Shown: one piece after another, positions 29,208 through 40,282 of the stretch
Position numbering within the stretch: position 1 is the stretch's first letter
Layout of the letters: each line of letters opens with the position of its first letter
Source of the DNA: an uncultured Alphaproteobacteria bacterium
Lineage (GTDB): Bacteria; Pseudomonadota; Alphaproteobacteria; CAAHEQ01; UBA3637
Direction: 5' to 3'
NCBI GenBank assembly: GCA_947624545.1
Contig: CANQKV010000003.1
Span: 1-51,910 of the forward strand
DNA: 51,910 nt
Translations under genes and position numbers: made by a program
Notes under the pieces: generated by a model
Told to the model about the DNA's origin: nothing
The model's input: the letters and a program-made list of their open reading frames with translations, nothing else
The model's database searches: none

Positions 29208-31535
29208 TTATTTATGAATACGTCGCCGATTTTTACGCTTGTTGGCTTTGTCATTCTGATTGTTTTCTTCATGAACGACTTTTGCGTTATTTTCATTTGA
29301 AGCGTTATCGGCAACCGCCGCATTGTTTGCTTTATCCGCATTTTGAGCGTTGTTACCTTTATCTGCATTTTGAGCATTATCGGCAGCCGCATTGTTTGCT
29401 TTATCCGCATTTTGAGGATTGTTGCCTTTATCCGCATTTTGAGCGTTATCGGCTTTATTCGCATTTTGAGCGTTGTTACCTTTATCCGCATTTTGAGGAT
29501 TGTTGTCGGCTTTTTGAGAATTGTTTTCCTCTTTGGCAGCAGGCTCCTTGTCCTTTTTCTTTTGCGGTTCAACCCGATGATCAACCTGATGATACCGTCC
29601 GTCGCTTTCCTTTTGGAAATATTCTTCACCGTATTTATCCCATCTTAAATTTAACGCAACATCATCAAAATCCAAAATGGTAGCATAATCGGTAAACTTA
29701 TTATCAACATTCCGATACAAGCGATAAGGAGATGTTTGTACCAATGTGTCTGTCCAATATTTATGCGTAACGGGAATCTCGACTTTCTTGAAGTTTTCTT
29801 GTTCCTGTGCGAGCGCTTCATCATATTCCAAGATTTGGAAACCGTCAATGTTTTTAATTTTGCTCTTAATTATTTCCACACTCGGATTCAGTTTTGCCGC
29901 TTCATCAATTCGCTTGGAAAGATCCGAATCGATTAAGTAGAAATATTCTTTAAACGGTACAAATCCCGCTAAAATATTTTCACGAACCTGGTTGACCAAT
30001 TTTTCGGTTTTCGATGAGGGTCGATTTAAAAAGCCGTAGTTCACGTTTTTATTATGGCGTATTGCCCAACGCCACATATCACGATAATTATCGTTATGCG
30101 CAAAGATAAAAACGTTTTTGTATTGTTTATCCAAGCGATCCCATTCTTCCGATTTAAACGGATGGGTTATCGTGTAGGGGTGACGAATATAATCGGATTT
30201 TCCTTTATAGTTCGGATATAAATCCCAAATTTGAACGACAAGCAAAAACGGTAACAGCAGATAAGCAAATTGCGGAAAAGTTTTTCCTGCCGTTTTAATC
30301 AGGAAAAATGCCAATAAATACCATATCGGCCAGAAGAAACGTCCGGAATAGCGGAAAACACTGCCGATCCAATCAATAATCGGACCGGGATTATAATCAA
30401 CTAAAACCAGTGTGCCGTATTTAACCTGACTGGATAAAGAATAAATGAAAAAACCTGCCAATAATAAAGCAATCAGCGCATTTTTCTTTAAGTTTTCCAT
30501 TTTGAAAAGATGCTTGATATGCGGAAAGAACATAATCAACAAAATCAATAAGCCGAATCCGAAATAATTGTCGGCATCAAAATCGTCTTTCAGTCTGGGT
30601 GTTATTGCTGAAAAAACACGTGATTGACTCCAAATCGGATTAAATAAGGCTGCTAAATTTAAGCCGAACAAGCGCCAACCGCCACTGGTTAATACTTGTT
30701 CTTTTTCAACCATACCCAACAAGTAAAACCAGAACAGAAACACACACGCCAGGCAAGTTATGCCCCAAAGAATCGTGCCGAGTCGCACTTCTTTATCAAA
30801 CCAATATTTTTTCAAAATTAAAATGAAAAAGAAACCGCCGACCATCGGTAAAAAGTAGGGGCAAGTCAACGTGGCAAGCGAAAGAATAATGCCCATTGCC
30901 AACCATTCGTTTTTTGTCAGCTTATCGTTTAACCATAAATAAATTGCCCATAATAATATAAATTGACACATAAGGTTAATGTGAACAAAAACGCGCATCA
31001 GCATAATCGGCGCGGTAACGAAAAACAAAGCGCCGATAATAACTAAAAACTTGTTTTTAAAGGCTTTTCTGAAAATTAAAACCGAAAAAACAGCTTGCAA
31101 CGTATAGCTGATTAACATCCAAATACCCACAAACTGTGTTTCGGCAGAAAGTCCGAAAAACTTATGAAATACCTTAAAAATAAGAGAAAGCAAGGGGCTG
31201 CCGTCCGTTCCGTGAACGGAAATGCCGTAAGGATATGCCAGATTCATATGTGTAAAAATCGGCCATCGCCATTCATCCAATCGATAAAAAACACTGCCTA
31301 AATATGAAACCGTAAAATCACCGCCCACAAGAACGAAATCTGTATTATAAACGTCCAGAACGGTAAAACCGAACATAACGAAAAAGGCGATTAAGGTCAG
31401 TCCTACCGTCACGATCATATCGCAGTTGGGATAAATAAAATTTATCAGCTTCGAATAAAATCGACCCAATTTTGTGTTTTGATTTTCCCGAAATTTAAAA
31501 CGGAAGAGCTTTGATGTATCCAGAACAATTTTCAT
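29208..31535 (-). CDS. DUF6311-like polytopic membrane protein (probable GT-C type glycosyltransferase) with module and Asn-rich tail
   Basis: A 775-residue membrane protein. About 11-13 hydrophobic helices fill residues 35-460. The first periplasmic loop has GGDFTVSYLGSVFYRLDEWRWP and a later PYGISVHGTDGSPLL, as in DUF6311 membrane proteins thought to be lipid-linked-sugar glycosyltransferases. Residues about 585-656 carry the shared module (HKYWTD then LRWDKYGEEYF). Residues 657-775 are an extremely Asn/Ala/Asp/Lys-rich repeat tail with copies of QNADKGNN or QNADKANN, ending in a basic NKRKNRRRIHK. The glycosyltransferase role is inferred; the donor and acceptor are unknown. Confidence 0.65.
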   Translation of the reverse strand: MKIVLDTSKLFRFKFRENQNTKLGRFYSKLINFIYPNCDMIVTVGLTLIAFFVMFGFTVLDVYNTDFVLVGGDFTVSYLGSVFYRLDEWRWPIFTHMNLAYPYGISVHGTDGSPLLSLIFKVFHKFFGLSAETQFVGIWMLISYTLQAVFSVLIFRKAFKNKFLVIIGALFFVTAPIMLMRVFVHINLMCQFILLWAIYLWLNDKLTKNEWLAMGIILSLATLTCPYFLPMVGGFFFILILKKYWFDKEVRLGTILWGITCLACVFLFWFYLLGMVEKEQVLTSGGWRLFGLNLAALFNPIWSQSRVFSAITPRLKDDFDADNYFGFGLLILLIMFFPHIKHLFKMENLKKNALIALLLAGFFIYSLSSQVKYGTLVLVDYNPGPIIDWIGSVFRYSGRFFWPIWYLLAFFLIKTAGKTFPQFAYLLLPFLLVVQIWDLYPNYKGKSDYIRHPYTITHPFKSEEWDRLDKQYKNVFIFAHNDNYRDMWRWAIRHNKNVNYGFLNRPSSKTEKLVNQVRENILAGFVPFKEYFYLIDSDLSKRIDEAAKLNPSVEIIKSKIKNIDGFQILEYDEALAQEQENFKKVEIPVTHKYWTDTLVQTSPYRLYRNVDNKFTDYATILDFDDVALNLRWDKYGEEYFQKESDGRYHQVDHRVEPQKKKDKEPAAKEENNSQKADNNPQNADKGNNAQNANKADNAQNADKGNNPQNADKANNAAADNAQNADKGNNAQNADKANNAAVADNASNENNAKVVHEENNQNDKANKRKNRRRIHK
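29301..29522 (-). repeat. In-frame tandem repeats encoding an Asn-rich tail
   Basis: About eight imperfect units of 24-33 bases encode QNADKGNN/QNADKANN-type peptides at the C-terminus of the DUF6311-like protein. The units vary by whole codons (some lack NNA or have AAADN inserted), so the array looks like a slippage or recombination product under selection for frame. Confidence 0.85.
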
Positions 31536-31665
31536 TTTTTCCCCTCTTGTTTCAGTGTGATTAAAAGTTAGTTTTCTTTTTATACCATATTTTATAAAAT
31601 ATCAATAAAAAAATATGTTTTTTTTAAAAAAAATATGTTTCGTGCCGAATAAAGGGGCGGCACAC

Positions 31666-31698
31666 AAAAAAACCGCTCTCGAAAGGAAAGCGGTTTTT
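31666..31698 (-). terminator. Terminator of the ferredoxin gene
   Basis: AAAAACCGCT and AGCGGTTTTTTT pair on the minus strand around a short loop, just after the ferredoxin stop codon, ending in a T run. Confidence 0.85.
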
Positions 31699-31716
31699 AT
31701 AAATGTTATTAAAGAG

Positions 31717-31953
31717 TTATGCTTTCGGCCATTCGGCAGATTGTCGAGCATTAAACTCAATCCACTTGTCATCGGCCTCATCGGAAGAGGAGATGGCACC
31801 TTGCGGACATTCGGAAATACAAACACCACATTCAATGCAATCATCGGGATTCACAACCACTTGCGAATCACCTTCATGAAAAGCGCCAACAGGGCATACT
31901 TCCGTACAACTCTTACATAAAACACATTTATCACCATTAACAACTGACGGCAT
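31717..31953 (-). CDS. 2[4Fe-4S] ferredoxin
   Basis: A 78-residue soluble electron carrier. Two cluster motifs are complete: C-x2-C-x2-C-x3-CP (CVLCKSCTEVCP, about residues 10-21) and C-x2-C-x2-C-x3-CP (CIECGVCISECP, about 39-50). The order and short spacing are those of bacterial clostridial-type ferredoxins; the C-terminal 25 residues (ISSSDEADDKWIEFN) are an added acidic helix. AAGGAGGAATT before the ATG is a very strong ribosome-binding site. It could serve pyruvate:ferredoxin or hydrogenase-type enzymes, which fits the acetate-CoA ligase, but no partner is in the window. Confidence 0.95.
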   Translation of the reverse strand: MPSVVNGDKCVLCKSCTEVCPVGAFHEGDSQVVVNPDDCIECGVCISECPQGAISSSDEADDKWIEFNARQSAEWPKA

Positions 31954-32091
31954 AATTCCTCCTTTTTTTATTGTTGTTACGATTTAAAAACTCTTATCAC
32001 AGAAAATAAAATTAAGCAAGTCTTTTTTTCATATTTTTGTATTTTTTAAGTCATTTTAATAAAATAAGGCAATTACCGAAATGAAAGTCGG

Positions 32092-32916
32092 TTATAATTC
32101 GGGTTTTAAATCGGAAGGAGTATCCCAATATTTTTCTTTTTCGTGAACGGGCATATACAATACGTTATATGTTTGCACCTGATATCCGAGCGGGTTTGTG
32201 CTGGACGGAATGCCGTTTTGATTGATTCGAATAATCACGCGAAAGCGTTGGCGTGCCAAAGCATTTTGTGTTTTGCATTCAATACATGTCTTTGAGTTGT
32301 CTTCACACGGGCAAAGCGGATTAAAAGCATTCGGAATGGGCATATCAAACGTATCAAACACGCCTTCCCACGTGTTTCCGTGAACGCGTTGTAATTCATA
32401 AATATGCACATCGCGGACAAAGCCTTTTGTTCGGGATTCGTTATACATTAAATCGGCTTCTGCCTGAAACGGCGCATAAACTTGTTTGTGATTGGAAAAT
32501 ACGGAAACGGGACCGGCGCTGCCCCACCGTTTTTGCATAGCCGCATTATCCCAAACAATTTCATTTCGATATTTAATATAGTCGCGTAAAATCGATTCGA
32601 TATACAAACGGCTTGCCGAAACGGTTATTTCTTCATATTCTGCCGGTAAAATAACTTTGCGCGACGAATCAATGGTATATAAATTGACGGCACGGCGATT
32701 GGCAATGGATATATCAACACGATCGGCGGAATAAATGACAAATGAGGCAATTAAAATGGTTAAAGCAATATTGATTATAATAATTACCGCCAGAAAACGC
32801 GCTGTTTTCATATACCGCCGTTCGGGCAGGGCTTTAACTTGCATATATTCGGGATAAGCACCTAACACATCGGGCGAATTCGTATTTTTCGGTGCAAATA
32901 AAAACCCTAGACGCAT
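32092..32916 (-). CDS. VirB8-like type IV secretion system protein
   Basis: A 274-residue bitopic membrane protein. A cytoplasmic start (about 1-40) is followed by one membrane helix (ARFLAVIIIINIALTILIASF, about 38-60 in part) and a periplasmic domain. The C-terminal NPLGYQVQTYNV closely resembles the NPLGF-x-V-x-SY-x-V end of VirB8, the assembly factor and scaffold of type IV secretion systems. Also typical are the SRLYIESILRDYIKYRNEIVWDN helix and the FRVIIRI strand. A Cys-rich insert (CPCEDNSKTCIEC) is not usual in VirB8. It is 12 bp after a lipoprotein gene. No other vir gene is in the window. Confidence 0.68.
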   Translation of the reverse strand: MRLGFLFAPKNTNSPDVLGAYPEYMQVKALPERRYMKTARFLAVIIIINIALTILIASFVIYSADRVDISIANRRAVNLYTIDSSRKVILPAEYEEITVSASRLYIESILRDYIKYRNEIVWDNAAMQKRWGSAGPVSVFSNHKQVYAPFQAEADLMYNESRTKGFVRDVHIYELQRVHGNTWEGVFDTFDMPIPNAFNPLCPCEDNSKTCIECKTQNALARQRFRVIIRINQNGIPSSTNPLGYQVQTYNVLYMPVHEKEKYWDTPSDLKPEL

Positions 32917-32928
32917 TTTCTCCTCTTT

Positions 32929-33384
32929 TTAATAATAATTTTTTGCGGCGCTTGTGTTTTTGCTGAGTGAAACATCGAAAATCACTTCTGTGCCGTTCAG
33001 TGAAGAAGAACCAAGCAAAATCATTGCGACACGGTTATCTTTGGCATACGTTAAATAACTGTTGGTTGCGCGAATACTTGTCAACTCCTGCCAGCCGAAT
33101 TTCGGCATTTCCTGCATATAAAAATCAAACATATTCGCTTGATTATACGGCACTTTAAAAGCCAATCGACCGATGAGCGGATCATTGCCGAACAATAATG
33201 TTTTATCCAAACTCATGGTTGCGTTTTCGGGAATGGGAATCTCGCGAAATTGCGCAAAATTAGGGGTTGATTGCATGACGCCGTTTTCAAATGTGTTTTC
33301 TGACTTAAATGAAGGTTGAATGCTTTCATTGTGACAAGCACTCAAAAAAACAAAACTGCTTAAAATAAAAAGTATTGCGCGCAT
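32929..33384 (-). CDS. Lipoprotein of the VirB8-like gene pair
   Basis: A 151-residue putative lipoprotein with a signal peptide and lipobox FLSAC (Cys17). The mature domain starts with a linker and then IPIPENATMSLDKTLLFG, and contains FDFYMQEMPKFGWQELTSI and AMILLGSSS, a compact alpha-beta pattern I associate with small uncharacterised alphaproteobacterial lipoproteins but cannot name. It lies 12 bp before the VirB8-like gene and is likely co-transcribed; a VirB7-like role in anchoring a complex to the outer membrane is conceivable but speculative. Confidence 0.7.
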   Translation of the reverse strand: MRAILFILSSFVFLSACHNESIQPSFKSENTFENGVMQSTPNFAQFREIPIPENATMSLDKTLLFGNDPLIGRLAFKVPYNQANMFDFYMQEMPKFGWQELTSIRATNSYLTYAKDNRVAMILLGSSSLNGTEVIFDVSLSKNTSAAKNYY

Positions 33385-33489
33385 TTTTTATCCTTTCGTA
33401 ATTTAAGAATAAAATAAACTTAAAAATAAATCAAGAGATTTTTATAGAAATCGGCGTTTAAAAAAGCTTTTCTTCATTCAAAAAAGGTA

Positions 33490-33525
33490 TAAAAAAACCT
33501 CTTCCCGAAAAAGAGAAGAGGCTTT
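33490..33525 (-). terminator. Terminator of pal
   Basis: CCTCTTCTC and GGGAAGAGG-like arms pair on the minus strand, followed by seven T, shortly after the pal stop codon. Confidence 0.85.
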
Positions 33526-33536
33526 GTTTTGAAATT

Positions 33537-34031
33537 TTAATAAGCAACCGTTGTGGCACTTCTGTTTTGAGCCCAAGCTTCTTCGGAGGAACCCAAAACG
33601 ACCGGACGTTCTTTACCGTAAGAGATAACCCGAATCCGATCAGATGAAATACCTTGCGCCATTAAGTAATTGCGCGCTGCCATGGCACGACGTTCTCCTA
33701 ATGCCAGGTTGTATTCGCGTGTGCCGCGTTCATCGCAACGACCTTCAATTACAACTAAAACCCGGGGATGATCAGCCAACCATTTTGCTTGTTCAGCCAA
33801 GTTTTGGCGCGCATCGGCCGTTAAATCGGAACTGTCTAACAAGAAATACACAACACTCGGTGTTTCATCGCGGAACTTTTGTGTGTTTTCCGTTTCTTGT
33901 AAATCGGCGATATTGACATCATCATTCCAACCGCCGTTGCCGTTACCGTATAAATCGGCACCGTCTTTTTTTGTTGCACAAGCACTCAACAGCGACATTG
34001 CGCAAATTAAAGCAAATAATTTTTTAAACAT
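33537..34031 (-). CDS. pal: Peptidoglycan-associated lipoprotein Pal
   Basis: A 164-residue outer-membrane lipoprotein of the Tol-Pal system, which links outer membrane to peptidoglycan. Lipobox LLSAC (Cys18) follows a signal peptide. The OmpA-like domain spans about residues 55-160, with VVIEGRCDERGTREYN, LALGERRAMAARNYL, and ISYGKERPV, including the Asp/Arg of the peptidoglycan-binding D-x-R-G motif. AGAGGAAAAA precedes the ATG at 34031; an upstream in-frame ATG at 34178 would add 49 residues with no signal-peptide features. No tolB or tolAQR gene is in the window. Confidence 0.95.
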   Translation of the reverse strand: MFKKLFALICAMSLLSACATKKDGADLYGNGNGGWNDDVNIADLQETENTQKFRDETPSVVYFLLDSSDLTADARQNLAEQAKWLADHPRVLVVIEGRCDERGTREYNLALGERRAMAARNYLMAQGISSDRIRVISYGKERPVVLGSSEEAWAQNRSATTVAY

Positions 34032-34220
34032 TTTTTCCTCTTTCATTGATAAAGTTTTCGGCGGCGTTTTGGCGTTTGGGGATATATTAAACATCAATTT
34101 ATTCCGTTTGGCGTTCAGCGTCGCGTTTTCGATTGTATCAAAACATAAAGGCGATTGAAAGTCAAGGTTTTTTTTCAAAAACGGGATATAAATATGAAAA
34201 AAATTTGAAAACAGGTGTTT

Positions 34221-35411
34221 TTATTGAATGCCTTTTTGATATTTTAATTGATTTCCGTCGTTTTCTTTTATAAATACTTCCGTGCCGTAATGATCCCATT
34301 TAATCGTGACGGTCTCATTATCTTCACGGATGATTTTGCCTGTTTCTTCCGGTATATCCACGCGATAAAAGTTTTTTTTGTCTTTAAAGCGAATCCAATC
34401 TGTCCAATTCGGATGAGAGACAAAAATATCATCTTTTAATATTTTGTTTTTAACACACGAAAAATCATAAGCTTTTTTCAAAACAGTCTGATTGAGTATT
34501 TTTAATTTTTCATTTGATTCGATCATTTTTTGATAAATGAGACATTTATGTTCCGTACTCACATACATGCTTAACCAATTATACGGCACATCTTCCCAAA
34601 AAGGCTTAATTTTTTCCAGTTGAATTTGTTTATATGATTCATTTTGAATTCTGTGATATGAAGGGGGACGTTCGACATTTTTAACATAGCCGAAATACAA
34701 AAGTTTTTCATTGATTTTTGTTATTTTACCGCCTTTGTTTAAAATATCTTTCCATAAACCGCTGTCTTCGGCGTATAAATATTTCGGGTTATATCGTAAA
34801 TGATGCTTATTTAAGAAATCACGACGCATCATAACGGTCGGATGCACAACACCCGATGTAAAATAAGTACTTAAAGCAATTTCATCGGGCGAACTCAGTC
34901 GGGGCGGTGTCAGCGGTTTTCCCGGCTCGATATCCGATCGGTATATATCGCCGCCCAACACGACAATATCGGGATTTTCATTCATTGCCCATACTTGCCG
35001 TTCCAACCGATACGAAACGGATTTGTCGTCATCGTCCATACGGGCAATATATTTACCGCGTGCTTTATCCAATCCGCGATTGAGCGAATAAATCAGCCCT
35101 TGATTGATTTCATTTTTTAAAGGTTTAATGCGCGAATCTTTTTTTGCGTAATTTTGAATTATTTTCCATGTTCTGTCGGTTGAACCGTCATCGATAATAA
35201 TGAATTCGAAATCTTTAAATGTTTGTTGCAGAATCGATTCAATGGCGGTCGGCAAAGCATGTTCGCGATTGAAAGTTGACATCACGACGGAAACTTCGGG
35301 CTGATGTTTCAAATGTTCAATAAAATCATGCGGATTAAAGTATTGTCTCGATAGAAAACCCGATAGAAAAACAAAAATCAAGCTGATAATAAAATAAACT
35401 GTTTTCTTCAT
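34221..35411 (-). CDS. Membrane-anchored family-2 glycosyltransferase with C-terminal module (GT-A)
   Basis: A 396-residue protein. An N-terminal membrane helix (about 3-22) is followed by a GT2 GT-A fold: SVVMSTFNREHALPTAIESILQ, IIDDGSTDRTW, then the DXD region ARMDDDDKS and a later LYAEDSGLWKDIL (the ED motif). The C-terminal residues 329-396 are the shared module (HPNWTDW, then IKWDHYGTEVF). It is a paralogue of the next gene to the right. With N-terminal lysines and one helix, the enzyme domain is predicted outside the cytoplasm, which is odd for a nucleotide-sugar enzyme. The glycan product is unknown. Confidence 0.8.
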   Translation of the reverse strand: MKKTVYFIISLIFVFLSGFLSRQYFNPHDFIEHLKHQPEVSVVMSTFNREHALPTAIESILQQTFKDFEFIIIDDGSTDRTWKIIQNYAKKDSRIKPLKNEINQGLIYSLNRGLDKARGKYIARMDDDDKSVSYRLERQVWAMNENPDIVVLGGDIYRSDIEPGKPLTPPRLSSPDEIALSTYFTSGVVHPTVMMRRDFLNKHHLRYNPKYLYAEDSGLWKDILNKGGKITKINEKLLYFGYVKNVERPPSYHRIQNESYKQIQLEKIKPFWEDVPYNWLSMYVSTEHKCLIYQKMIESNEKLKILNQTVLKKAYDFSCVKNKILKDDIFVSHPNWTDWIRFKDKKNFYRVDIPEETGKIIREDNETVTIKWDHYGTEVFIKENDGNQLKYQKGIQ

Positions 35412-35442
35412 GGAAAGAACTTCGTAAAATTATTTTGTCTTC

Positions 35443-36630
35443 TTATTGAATTCTCCACCGTTTTCCGCCGTTTTCTTTGGTAAACACTTCCGTACCGTAG
35501 TGATCCCATTTGATTGTGACGGTCTTATCATCTTCATGAGTGATTTTACCTGTTTCGGTCGGGATATTTAAACGGACAATCGTTTTATCTTTGGGATTGA
35601 CATAAATAAAGTCATTCCAGAATTTGTGAATGGTTTTGATTGCACCTGCCATCAATTCATTTTTTGTGCAAACAGCCTTTTTCCTCTTTTCAAGTATATC
35701 CTGATTTAAAATATGTAATTGCTCATTTTTTTGAACCATATTTGTGAGAATGATACACTTGTCTGTATTGTTGTTGAAGGCGCCCAATATTTCATAAGGT
35801 GCATCGAAAAAAGGCGCTAATTTTTCTTTTTGAACTAATTTAAACGTTTCACCTTGAATATAGCGATATTTGTCCGGATGCGTAACGTTTTTGATATATC
35901 CGAGATATAATAAGCCCTCGTCAAGTGAAGAAATTTTACCGCCTTTATTCAAGATATCCTTATAAAGACCGGTATCTTCGGCATAGAGATATTTGGAATT
36001 ATATCGAATGTGATGTTTTTCCAAAAAGTCACGCCGAATCATAATGGTCGGATGTGCCAGTGCTGAAGAAAAATAAGTGTTGATGGCAATTTCATCCGGA
36101 TCATTAATCAAGGGATAAGAATGTAACCGTTTCGGAACGGCATCGGCGTTTAAGATAGCTGTGCCCAACACGACAATATCGGGATTTTCTTCCATTGCCC
36201 ATACTTGCCGTTCCAATCGATACGAAACGGATTTGTCGTCATCGTCCATACGGGCAATATATTTACCGCGTGCTTTATCCAATCCGCGATTAAGGGAATA
36301 AATCAAACCTTTGTTTTTTTCGTTTTTAAGGGGAACAATGCGTTTATCCTTTTTCGCATAAGATTGAATAAGTTTCCATGTATTGTCGGTTGAACCGTCA
36401 TCGATGATAATAAATTCAAAATCTTCAAATGTTTGTTGAAGAATCGATTCAATGGCGGTCGGCAAAGCGTGTTCACGATTGAAAGTTGACATTATAACGG
36501 AAACGACAGGCTTGTGGAAAAGATGATAAATAGACGGAAATAATAACTTTTCACTAAATATTCCGGCACAAAAAACGACGATTGTATATAAAATACCGAT
36601 GAGTGCTCTCATGATTTTTGATTTTTTCAT
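35443..36630 (-). CDS. Membrane-anchored family-2 glycosyltransferase with C-terminal module (GT-B)
   Basis: A 395-residue paralogue of the gene 31 bases downstream. The layout is the same: an N-terminal membrane helix (about 8-27), GT2 domain with SVIMSTFNREHALPTAIE, IIDDGSTDNTW, DXD in ARMDDDDKS, and LYAEDTGLYKDIL, then residues 331-395 with the shared module (HKFWND, IKWDHYGTEVF). ATG at 36630 follows GAGGGGAAT; the longer frame from 36750 would add an unlikely extra hydrophobic segment. Near-identical DNA in the DXD region (99 bp with one mismatch) contrasts with divergent C-terminal halves. It is downstream of the sulfotransferase-like gene with a 64-bp gap. Confidence 0.8.
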   Translation of the reverse strand: MKKSKIMRALIGILYTIVVFCAGIFSEKLLFPSIYHLFHKPVVSVIMSTFNREHALPTAIESILQQTFEDFEFIIIDDGSTDNTWKLIQSYAKKDKRIVPLKNEKNKGLIYSLNRGLDKARGKYIARMDDDDKSVSYRLERQVWAMEENPDIVVLGTAILNADAVPKRLHSYPLINDPDEIAINTYFSSALAHPTIMIRRDFLEKHHIRYNSKYLYAEDTGLYKDILNKGGKISSLDEGLLYLGYIKNVTHPDKYRYIQGETFKLVQKEKLAPFFDAPYEILGAFNNNTDKCIILTNMVQKNEQLHILNQDILEKRKKAVCTKNELMAGAIKTIHKFWNDFIYVNPKDKTIVRLNIPTETGKITHEDDKTVTIKWDHYGTEVFTKENGGKRWRIQ

Positions 36631-36694
36631 ATTCCCCTCACATAAATAATAATGTTTTTTTCTAGCATACTCCGAATAAAAAAGCAATAAAAAA

Positions 36695-38560
36695 TTAATG
36701 AATGGGAAAAAGAAAATTGTTTTCATAAAATTGAATCGGCACAACGGCATAATAAAAAGTGGCAGGAATTATGGCACGATAAACTTCTTCGCCTTTATTC
36801 AAACGCATGACAATCGTATTTCCACGGGTGCGATTATGTTCAATCGGAACGGTGGTTGCCGATACCCAAATTTCCTTTGTCACGGGATGAATATAAACAA
36901 GGGATCCCATTTCGGCATGAAAGTTTAAATCTTTCAGAAAAAGCTGATGAACGGTTCGTTTTTTATCATTGATTTTATAAATTGAGGCATATGAATTTTT
37001 TGTTGTTTTAAGCTTTTTATCGAATAATTCACCGGAATTGTCAAAAATAGAGTAAATCCCGTTGCCGGCATATAAAACATTATGTGTTTTTAAAGGCCAT
37101 TTAAAATCGGGAACGGTTTCGATTCCTTCTTGCACGGCTTGCGGATACGGTTTGCCGTTTTTGTCGACAACCGTTAAAACTTTATTTTTCAGTGAACCGT
37201 TTTTTCCGTTTCTGCCTGATTTATTCACTTGTTGATGCGGTGTAAACCACCACAGAAGCTTTTTTGTTTTTTCATCGATTTTGGCAATACCGAAGTGACG
37301 CCCCGATACAATAACGGCTTTGTTTTCGGCATCATAGGTAATGCCGTTGGTATGCGCCCAATCTATTTTATTATAATCATATTCCGTGGATTTGACAATT
37401 AACGATCGATCGGGATTAAGCATTTCCGCCAAATCATAACGTGCCACTTCTTTCCCCGTTTCATAATCTAACTCTAAAACAAAATCGCGATGAGTTGGCA
37501 AATTTTTCCCGTCAATAAGCGCCGTTGTGTTGTTAAATGAGCCGAAAACAAGCAAATTGCCGTTCGGTTTGTGTCCCATGCCGTGAACATAAGTGTAAAA
37601 ATTAGCAGGGTAAGAATAATGCTTTTCCAATTCGCCGAGCAGATTATAGCGATTAATGCCGTTTGGATATTCCGCAAAAATTTTATCTTTGAAAAAATAG
37701 GCATGATGTCCGTTAGGCAGGTTTAAAAAATAGCGTAAATGTCCTTTTTCATCATAAACATCGCCATTGTATGAAGCGTAATAATAAAATTGATTGTCTG
37801 TTTTGCGCTGAACAAACCATTGCGTTGTTAAAGGAATATTTCCCGTTTGAACGTGAACGGTATTTTTTTGAATGGATTTATCTTCAAATTCCGCCGTAAT
37901 CGTTACGGTGTTTTCATAATTGGCATATAAGCCTAAAACAGGCAGAGAATGTTCGTTTTCAAAGGTAGGGAATGTATGAGTAATATCGGGCGAATCGTCT
38001 TTGCCGTGAATGGTTAAAGTAATACGGGCTTTTTGCTTTGTCGGAAACTTTATAAGTGCCGTCAGCGGAGCGATTTTATAGGGATTAACCAGAATAAACG
38101 GCTCTTTTAAAGAATAATCGAAGGAAGAATAGTTTTGCTCAATTTCTTCCGTTATCGGTGTGTTCAAAGTTTTTTGCAAAACATAAGAATTTTTTTTGTC
38201 AGATTGAATAAATATTTCCCAAGGCCATTTTTCCCATTTCACGATGATTTGATTGTCTTTAAAAACAACAAAGGCGCAGTCGTTGTATCCCGTGTTTCGG
38301 CAAAAGCGATTATTGACTATTTTAACCGTTTCGCGCCAGTATATATGTATTAAAGTGATTTGTAAATCATCGGATGATGAGTCGTTTTGTTGAGTTTTTG
38401 ATTCTTTATTCGGAAGAGGGGATTTGTCGGCATAGATATTGTCAATAACGGTCAAACTTCCGATGACGAGTGCTGCAACAAGCAATGTGATTGATAGAAA
38501 GCATAAAAACACGTGATGATGAATGATTTTGCATAAATCACTTTTTAGTTGTTTTGTCAT
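36695..38560 (-). CDS. Anchored arylsulfate sulfotransferase-like protein with N-terminal module
   Basis: A 621-residue protein. One membrane helix (about 17-40) with N-terminal lysines predicts an extracytoplasmic body. Residues about 66-133 are the shared module (IHIYWRE, VKWEKWPWEIF). From about 190 the sequence matches the beta-propeller arylsulfotransferase (ASST) family: IDWAHTNGITYD and VSGRHFGIAKID supply candidate catalytic His residues, FVLELDYETGKEVARY and PHQQVNKSGRNG precede later conserved blades, and KTHNVLY and FDNSGE follow. ASST enzymes move sulfate between phenolic esters and acceptors. It leads the GT-B/GT-A genes, so sulfation of their glycan is a reasonable guess. Confidence 0.75.
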   Translation of the reverse strand: MTKQLKSDLCKIIHHHVFLCFLSITLLVAALVIGSLTVIDNIYADKSPLPNKESKTQQNDSSSDDLQITLIHIYWRETVKIVNNRFCRNTGYNDCAFVVFKDNQIIVKWEKWPWEIFIQSDKKNSYVLQKTLNTPITEEIEQNYSSFDYSLKEPFILVNPYKIAPLTALIKFPTKQKARITLTIHGKDDSPDITHTFPTFENEHSLPVLGLYANYENTVTITAEFEDKSIQKNTVHVQTGNIPLTTQWFVQRKTDNQFYYYASYNGDVYDEKGHLRYFLNLPNGHHAYFFKDKIFAEYPNGINRYNLLGELEKHYSYPANFYTYVHGMGHKPNGNLLVFGSFNNTTALIDGKNLPTHRDFVLELDYETGKEVARYDLAEMLNPDRSLIVKSTEYDYNKIDWAHTNGITYDAENKAVIVSGRHFGIAKIDEKTKKLLWWFTPHQQVNKSGRNGKNGSLKNKVLTVVDKNGKPYPQAVQEGIETVPDFKWPLKTHNVLYAGNGIYSIFDNSGELFDKKLKTTKNSYASIYKINDKKRTVHQLFLKDLNFHAEMGSLVYIHPVTKEIWVSATTVPIEHNRTRGNTIVMRLNKGEEVYRAIIPATFYYAVVPIQFYENNFLFPIH

Positions 38561-38710: not shown

Positions 38711-38739
38711 TTGACAAATTTTAAAAGATAATATATAAT
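38711..38739 (+). promoter_or_regulatory. Promoter of hipBA
   Basis: TTGACA at 38711-38716 and TATAAT at 38734-38739 with a 17-bp spacer form a perfect sigma-70 consensus. The operator-like dyad at 38726 overlaps the -10, which fits strong synthesis held down by autorepression. Confidence 0.85.
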
Positions 38740-39088: not shown

Positions 39089-40282
39089 ATGATTCGGTTG
39101 AATGTTTATTTGAATGCCTATCAAAAGCGTCAATTCGTCGGTGTTTTGGAACGGCGTGATCGCATTATGTTTGAATATGCGCCGACATTTTTAAAATCGG
39201 GCATTGAGTTGTCGCCGTTTATGTTACCGCTCAAAAGCGGTGTTTTTGTTGATAGCGAACAAACGTTTGACGGATTGTTCGGGCTTTTTAACGACAGTTT
39301 GCCCGACGGGTGGGGGTGTTTGCTTTTAGACAGATATTTGCAAAAGCAGGGTTTATCATATTATGCCATTAATCCGTTGCATCGGTTGTCCATTATCGGT
39401 TCGCAGGCAATGGGTGCGTTGGAATATGACCCGACGCCGACGCCGAATGATAATTGGAAAGATATTTTGCATTTGGATTCGTTATCCAAAGGAGCGGTAG
39501 AGATTATTCAGGGATCCAGTTCCGAATTGTTGGACAGATTAAAGGGTTTGAACGGATCGGCGGCAGGTGCGCGTCCGAAGATTGTGGCTTTGGTGTCAAG
39601 CGATTACAAAACCATTGTAAGCGGACGAATGGCAATGAAAGAATTTCAACCGTGGATTATTAAGTTTTCATCGAAATACGACAATCCGAATTTAGGGGCG
39701 TTGGAATATATTTATTCCGTTATGGCAAAAAAGGCGGGTGTGGATATGCCCGACACATATTTGTTTGAATCCAAGGAGTGTGCGGGACATTTCGGCGTGG
39801 CGCGATTTGATCGGCAAGGTGCCAACAAAATACACATACACAGTGCATGCGGCTTGTTACATGCTTCTCATCGAATGCCGACGTTGGATTATGAAAATCT
39901 GATGCGATTAACGGCGCATTTAACGCATGATATGCGTGAAGTGGAAAAAATGGTTCGGTTAATGATTTTTAACGTGAAAGCGGGCAACAAAGATGATCAC
40001 ACGAAAAACTTTTCCTATATGATGACGGCAGATTATCGGTGGAAAATGACGCCGGCGTATGACATAACACCCTCGGCGGGAATGAACGGGGAGCAAACGG
40101 CTATGGTAAACGGCAAAGGGCGGCACATTTTGAATGATGATTTAATTATGACAGCGCATTTGGCAGGCGTGAGTGAAGCCAAAACGAAGAAAATGATTGA
40201 AGAAGTGGAAGCGGCACTTTCCGATTTTCCGCGCTTATTAAAGGAATACGGCATTCAAACGAATCCGCGTGTTTATTTTTAA
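39089..40282 (+). CDS. hipA: HipA-like serine/threonine kinase toxin
   Basis: A 397-residue HipA family kinase. The N-terminal couple_hipA-type domain (LPLKSGVF, FDGLFGLFNDSLPDGWG) is followed by a kinase fold: GSAAGARPKIV (156-166) for the glycine-rich region, PWIIKFSS with the ATP lysine (K192), catalytic N-x-DDH-x-KN at 300-307 (GNKDDHTKN), and DITP at 325-328. E. coli HipA phosphorylates GltX, arresting translation; the target here could be another protein. GGGGGAAGA precedes the ATG. It ends beside a leftward pilin-like gene. Confidence 0.92.
   Translation: MIRLNVYLNAYQKRQFVGVLERRDRIMFEYAPTFLKSGIELSPFMLPLKSGVFVDSEQTFDGLFGLFNDSLPDGWGCLLLDRYLQKQGLSYYAINPLHRLSIIGSQAMGALEYDPTPTPNDNWKDILHLDSLSKGAVEIIQGSSSELLDRLKGLNGSAAGARPKIVALVSSDYKTIVSGRMAMKEFQPWIIKFSSKYDNPNLGALEYIYSVMAKKAGVDMPDTYLFESKECAGHFGVARFDRQGANKIHIHSACGLLHASHRMPTLDYENLMRLTAHLTHDMREVEKMVRLMIFNVKAGNKDDHTKNFSYMMTADYRWKMTPAYDITPSAGMNGEQTAMVNGKGRHILNDDLIMTAHLAGVSEAKTKKMIEEVEAALSDFPRLLKEYGIQTNPRVYF

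Follow-up and report, generated by a model that had tools for sequence, protein, structure and literature searches.

That extracytoplasmic glycosyltransferases can have accessory substrate-binding domains is already known. According to one report (PMC11127046), extracytoplasmic GT-C enzymes have GT-C folds and use lipid-linked donors; the C-terminal carbohydrate-binding module of a GT136 enzyme binds the unmodified O-polysaccharide, although activity did not require it in the conditions tested, and the carbohydrate-binding module of EmbC is needed for efficient activity. What the GT-C enzymes with such modules (GT136 ORF12, EmbC, and AftD) have in common is extracytoplasmic glycan modification and a beta-rich accessory domain. 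Here we report an unnamed module carried by four neighboring genes in a 51,910-nucleotide stretch of DNA from an uncultured alphaproteobacterium (contig CANQKV010000003.1; the whole stretch is called the window below). The GT2 glycosyltransferases that bear it very likely have exported catalytic domains, and we see about an even chance that the module holds these and other glycan-building enzymes, predicted to be exported, on their acceptor glycan.

One carrier, a DUF6311 protein, has a layout similar to that of GT136 ORF12, EmbC, and AftD. Most of the carriers, in contrast, have other folds behind a single anchor, and the module itself, at about 60 residues, has no detected link to the modules of those three enzymes. 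Another likeness is to the type II glycosyltransferases of the Golgi, especially the polypeptide GalNAc-transferases, to whose lectin domain we compare the module. Bacterial nucleotide-sugar glycosyltransferases are thought to act in the cytoplasm. Known sulfotransferases of the ASST type (PF05935, PF17425), which we take to be periplasmic, also have a counterpart in the window; it scores above both cut-offs (E 8.6e-46 and 5.5e-24; 157.1 and 84.5 bits against a gathering score of 24.2) but carries the module in addition.

A shared module in four neighboring genes

The initial annotation had reported the same short segment in four leftward genes of the window, and the translations bear this out at all four places. 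The genes and their module copies, with expect values from the module profile, are as follows.

36695..38560, minus strand: ASST gene; N-terminal hydrophobic anchor (segment from residue 17), then module, PF17425, and PF05935
38189..38353, minus strand: module copy, ASST residues 70-124; E 6e-15; has the first cysteine pair (see below)
35443..36630, minus strand: glycosyltransferase gene GT-B; anchor, GT2 domain (PF00535, E 9.4e-37), linker with two conserved cysteines, module
35461..35631, minus strand: module copy of GT-B; E 2e-17
34221..35411, minus strand: glycosyltransferase gene GT-A; anchor, GT2 domain, linker with two conserved cysteines, module
34251..34421, minus strand: module copy of GT-A; E 1e-19
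29208..31535, minus strand: DUF6311 polytopic protein (PF19830, E 1.2e-19); module after the membrane part, then a low-complexity tail
29595..29771, minus strand: module copy of the DUF6311 protein, residues 589-647 of 775; E 5e-18

Both glycosyltransferases exceed the PF00535 gathering score of 23.3 bits (GT-A, 129.1; GT-B, 127), and the DUF6311 protein exceeds that of PF19830 (71.6 against 27 bits). Alignment to relatives makes position 36630, or a start seven codons inward, the probable start of GT-B and disfavors 36750. By hydropathy the DUF6311 protein has 8 hydrophobic segments; segments begin at residues 41 and 136, with a long stretch between them. The annotation had placed the module at the C terminus in three proteins and at the N terminus in the fourth. 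This holds except that the DUF6311 copy is not at the very end of its protein, being followed by the low-complexity tail. That tail (29208-29590, minus strand) repeats units like NADKGNN, and many relatives stop shortly past the module.

The four window segments align with eight invariant columns, and the conserved residues of the module are H, W, R, W, W/Y, E, and F. A profile built from these segments, searched against the window's own genome, recovered the four and four more copies: one in a GT2 protein (C64; E 4e-11), two in tandem in a GT2 protein (C21; E 5e-10 and 2e-4), and one in a 104-residue stand-alone protein (C12; E 4e-9); a ninth row with an E value of 0.175 was left out of this count. 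In 23 of the 28 pairwise local alignments among the eight copies, the real score was unmatched by any of 1000 shuffles. The five weaker pairs were DUF6311/C21b, GT-B/ASST, C21a/C12, GT-B/C21a, and DUF6311/C21a, for which 1, 7, 17, 45, and 63 shuffles, respectively, reached the real score. The eight copies form one homologous family, though some single pairs are unconvincing alone. The profile search proposed in the annotation, when run on genomes, finds a family beyond the four window copies.

The segment had also been called unrecognized, and it keeps that status: no Pfam or NCBIfam model lies over it in the proteins that we scanned, and no described family covers the module in the sampled proteins. 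The MIB_HERC2 domain (PF06701) appeared on the module of a single protein (L056), at 13.1 bits, below its gathering score of 33.5. AlphaFold models the module as a seven-strand beta domain (block pLDDT 87-92), and its model of full-length GT-A ends in strands of a like kind. Fold matches to the module were weak; the nearest known systems include small barrels of the lipocalin-like or lipoprotein type (5hal, NlpE, and others). Among the literature matches listed, titles and abstract openings held no account of the module or of such exported nucleotide-sugar glycosyltransferases, and a literature search on DUF6311 found no paper. As judged from the libraries used, the module is an unnamed family of about 60 residues.

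Carriers and mobility of the module

Our catalogue of carriers draws on the matches listed for 22 of the 24 genomes that matched the profile in the first search (see below), among them the window's own genome; it does not cover G015 and G041. It holds at least 151 module copies in at least 122 distinct open reading frames (ORFs), some of them truncated by contig ends. The carriers comprise 59 GT2 ORFs, 17 DUF6311, 13 ASST, 5 GT6, 3 PM0188-type sialyltransferases (which we take to be GT80), 3 GT11, 1 GT8, 2 other polytopic proteins, 18 stand-alone copies in 18 genomes, and 1 other. Classes were assigned by clustering with the modules masked and by Pfam scans of the four window proteins and ten representatives, the remaining members being placed by blastp alone. 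One of the two other polytopic carriers was scanned and had no Pfam match.

In all 59 GT2 carriers the module is C-terminal, in one copy (42 proteins), two (14), three (1), or four (2). It is N-terminal in 12 ASST carriers and C-terminal in 1, N-terminal in 2 GT6 carriers and C-terminal in 3, and ahead of the catalytic domain in all three GT11 proteins; the stand-alone copies sit behind an anchor. The usual layouts are two, anchor-catalytic domain-cysteine linker-module and anchor-module-catalytic domain. Position, copy number, and enzyme class all vary, and the module behaves as a mobile unit. The annotation had already supposed that it moves as a unit, and the relatives, which have it N-terminal, C-terminal, in tandem, and alone, and which span seven Pfam families, agree. 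In a module tree the carrier class changes 22 times against a minimum of 9, but resolution is poor and none of the well-supported branches requires the extra changes.

An alternative is docking, which the annotation proposed beside glycan binding: copies would bind to each other, or would share a partner such as the stand-alone anchored copy, and gather exported enzymes into a complex. This could also explain why so many enzymes have the one module, why it occurs in tandem, and why 18 of the 22 catalogued genomes have a stand-alone copy. Two genomes (G001 and G008), however, match by the stand-alone copy only and so would have no module-bearing enzyme to dock, and the conserved aromatic and charged residues resemble a ligand site, a suggestive likeness. 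We consider docking rather unlikely.

Frequent neighbors of the stand-alone copy (e.g., L007:1381-1692), as identified by eye in translation, are an Hsp20-like gene and genes for a small anchored protein and for glycyl-tRNA synthetase. In-frame stops interrupt two frames, a TGA in a module-bearing frame (G028:C1:701-880) and a TAG within a GT2 domain (G012:C22:19144-19365); these are either decayed genes or assembly errors.

Predicted export of the catalytic domains

The more surprising part of these results is not the shared module itself but the export signature of the enzymes that carry it, which the annotation had missed. We scored an anchor as a hydrophobic segment of at least 1.3 (17-residue Kyte-Doolittle) before the GT2 domain, in ORFs from the genome stretches analyzed. 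Such an anchor is present in 56 of 58 GT2 ORFs with the module (52 at a threshold of 1.6) and in 12 of 67 without it (Fisher 6e-21, a value that ignores relatedness and the partial overlap of stretches). In nine module-free genomes, where 57 GT2 places were listed, 1 of 30 sampled GT2 ORFs was anchored. The charge bias of the 58 carriers is N-in for 54, neutral for 3, and N-out for 1. Loose patterns for the DxD-like and ED motifs of GT2 enzymes with a GT-A fold are found in 58/58. By hydropathy and charge, the arrangement is that of a single N-terminal, N-in anchor, as in Golgi-like type II proteins. Six anchored GT2 proteins counted as module-free (L147, L151, L159, L160, L161, and L168) have C-terminal segments that look, by eye, like a diverged copy of it.

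An N-terminal hydrophobic helix (1.2 or more) is present in 96 of the 103 non-polytopic carriers of all classes. The charge bias is N-in for 84 of them and N-out for 4 (the GT8 and one carrier each of GT2, PM0188, and GT11), and 4 are cut at the 5' end. These numbers bear on a second alternative, that the module is a retention tag that attaches to peptidoglycan or some other invariant polymer of the envelope and merely keeps enzymes in place. Stand-alone copies exist, and in several ASST carriers the start resembles, by eye, a short cleavable signal, so that these proteins would have to be retained in some way; 96 carriers have a helix, though, and the DUF6311 proteins are polytopic, so for most carriers an extra tag would be redundant. 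We think this explanation improbable.

Cysteine content lends indirect support to export. Cysteines make up 0.17% of the GT2 domain in module-bearing proteins, 0.21% in the 12 anchored proteins that lack the module, and 2.06% in 55 unanchored ones, or 0.29 cysteines per domain for module-bearing proteins against 2.93 for unanchored ones. At least two cysteines lie between the GT2 domain and the module in all 58 carriers, and a C-x15-45-C pattern follows the GT2 domain in 58/58 carriers, 8/12 anchored module-free proteins, and 18/55 unanchored ones. Within the module, both cysteines of a first pair are present in 40 copies, one in 3, and neither in 108, while a second pair occurs together in 4/4 copies and a third in 10/10. 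By class, the first pair is found in 19/81 GT2 copies, 10/16 ASST, 4/4 PM0188, 3/3 GT11, 2/2 GT8, and 2/5 GT6, compared with 0/17 DUF6311, 0/18 stand-alone, and 0/4 other polytopic copies. Genes of the DsbA family are present in 12/12 genomes searched. Since the charge-biased anchor, the depletion of cysteines, and their pairing agree, the catalytic domains of the module-bearing GT2 enzymes are, as judged from sequence, very likely exported, with a predicted periplasmic orientation.

An odd number of cysteines past the start of the GT2 domain in 17/58 carriers argues against full pairing. A distant relative (G667) with a module-like C-terminal end lacks, by eye, an N-terminal anchor. The main gap in the proposed mechanism is the supply of donors to the periplasm: PF04142, the sole nucleotide-sugar transporter family searched, was found in 0/12 genomes (PF01150 was also found in 0/12, in a search without a positive control). 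Nucleotide sugars are cytoplasmic, and together with the PF04142 result and the unanchored relative this would fit glycosyltransferases tethered by their N termini at the cytoplasmic face, for which the module would be a structural or regulatory extension in the cytoplasm. The cysteine-depleted catalytic domains, the co-varying cysteine pairs, the N-in bias, and the presence of the same module on ASST all speak against a cytoplasmic location, which we hold to be very unlikely.

Genome G004 encodes a Stealth-family protein (PF11380, PF17101; L066:1446-2432, minus strand) that lacks the module but has, as seen by eye, a hydrophobic segment at its N terminus. It is possibly another exported sugar enzyme.

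A proposed periplasmic assembly line

With export as the preferred reading, the enzymes would be anchored in the inner membrane with their catalytic domains in the periplasm, where they would act in turn on one surface glycan. The ASST would add sulfate; a sugar from a lipid donor would be added by DUF6311, provided that this protein is a GT-C enzyme. The module would grip the acceptor and raise its local concentration, tandem copies would add avidity, and the stand-alone anchored copy would hold the acceptor. Glycan binding by the module is drawn from analogy with the accessory domains above, and whether the module indeed serves to hold these enzymes on their acceptor seems to us evenly balanced.

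A broader picture can be offered tentatively, with somewhat less than even confidence. In one lineage, with relatives from animal guts, five glycosyltransferase families of the nucleotide-sugar type and a sulfotransferase may be exported and form a Golgi-like, module-marked periplasmic assembly line. The presence of GT6, GT11, and sialyltransferase domains would point to fucosylated, sialylated, blood-group-like, and sulfated surface glycans built outside the cytoplasm. Should the GT2, GT6, GT8, GT11, and sialyltransferase domains indeed take nucleotide sugars as donors in the periplasm, the system would be new in kind. Exported GT-A and similar enzymes with one module in common would imply that Golgi-style stepwise glycan building can take place in a bacterial periplasm, and would raise the question of how activated sugars are delivered there. 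The fusions to GT6, GT11, and sialyltransferase domains raise the testable possibility that gut bacteria display host-like glycans. In practical terms, the module profile picks out such enzymes, and the ligand of the module would indicate the glycan.

Distribution and sister loci

The module is nearly confined to one alphaproteobacterial family. In the first search of relatives, 24/113 genomes matched, all in the window's own family (f1). A profile of 39 diverse copies matched 23 of the 43 genomes searched from the order, which may be RF32 of GTDB; all 43 belong to f1. The class sample gave 4/385 matching genomes, all f1 and including the window genome, and the phylum sample gave 2/398, the window genome and G667 (E 2.2e-4). 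The only match to the module-like region of the G667 protein, at 100% identity, is a glycosyltransferase family 2 protein of Methylobacterium haplocladii. In a large protein database, 48 of 542 candidates proved to be stand-alone relatives, and no Pfam domain is listed for any of the 48. For the C terminus of GT-A, 6 of 57 candidates were relatives, one of them the window protein. Records of four relatives are metagenome-assembled Alphaproteobacteria titled Lapin, Yak_Rectum, Roe_deer_Colon, and BRZ_DV.

Co-occurrence with ASST, a check that the annotation had suggested, is supported within the order: PF05935 is found in 19/23 module-bearing genomes and in 0/20 without the module (Fisher 1.7e-8). 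Some ASST copies lack the module, and no ASST match is present in four of the module-bearing genomes (G003, G004, G008, and G021).

Reading leftward, the gene order in the window is ASST, GT-B, GT-A, an OmpA-family gene, two genes without a Pfam match, and DUF6311. The order of ASST, two glycosyltransferases, three neighbors, and DUF6311 is seen again in G007 and G009; G005 has one glycosyltransferase ORF there. In these three genomes, identity to the window is 62-66% for ASST, 59-72% for the best glycosyltransferase matches, and 70-79% for DUF6311, whereas the three intervening genes and an MFS gene beyond DUF6311 are 86-97% identical. A transglutaminase-like gene further on is 80% identical, and 67% over part of its length. 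The gap between 59-79% for module-bearing genes and 86-97% for their immediate neighbors indicates that the module-bearing genes evolve faster, as expected for variable surface-glycan genes.

Promoter-like sites in the window number 37 overall, near the 32.4 expected from shuffles. One of them, at 38711-38739 on the plus strand, is a perfect TTGACA-17-TATAAT site that lies 5' of the rightward ORF at 39089.

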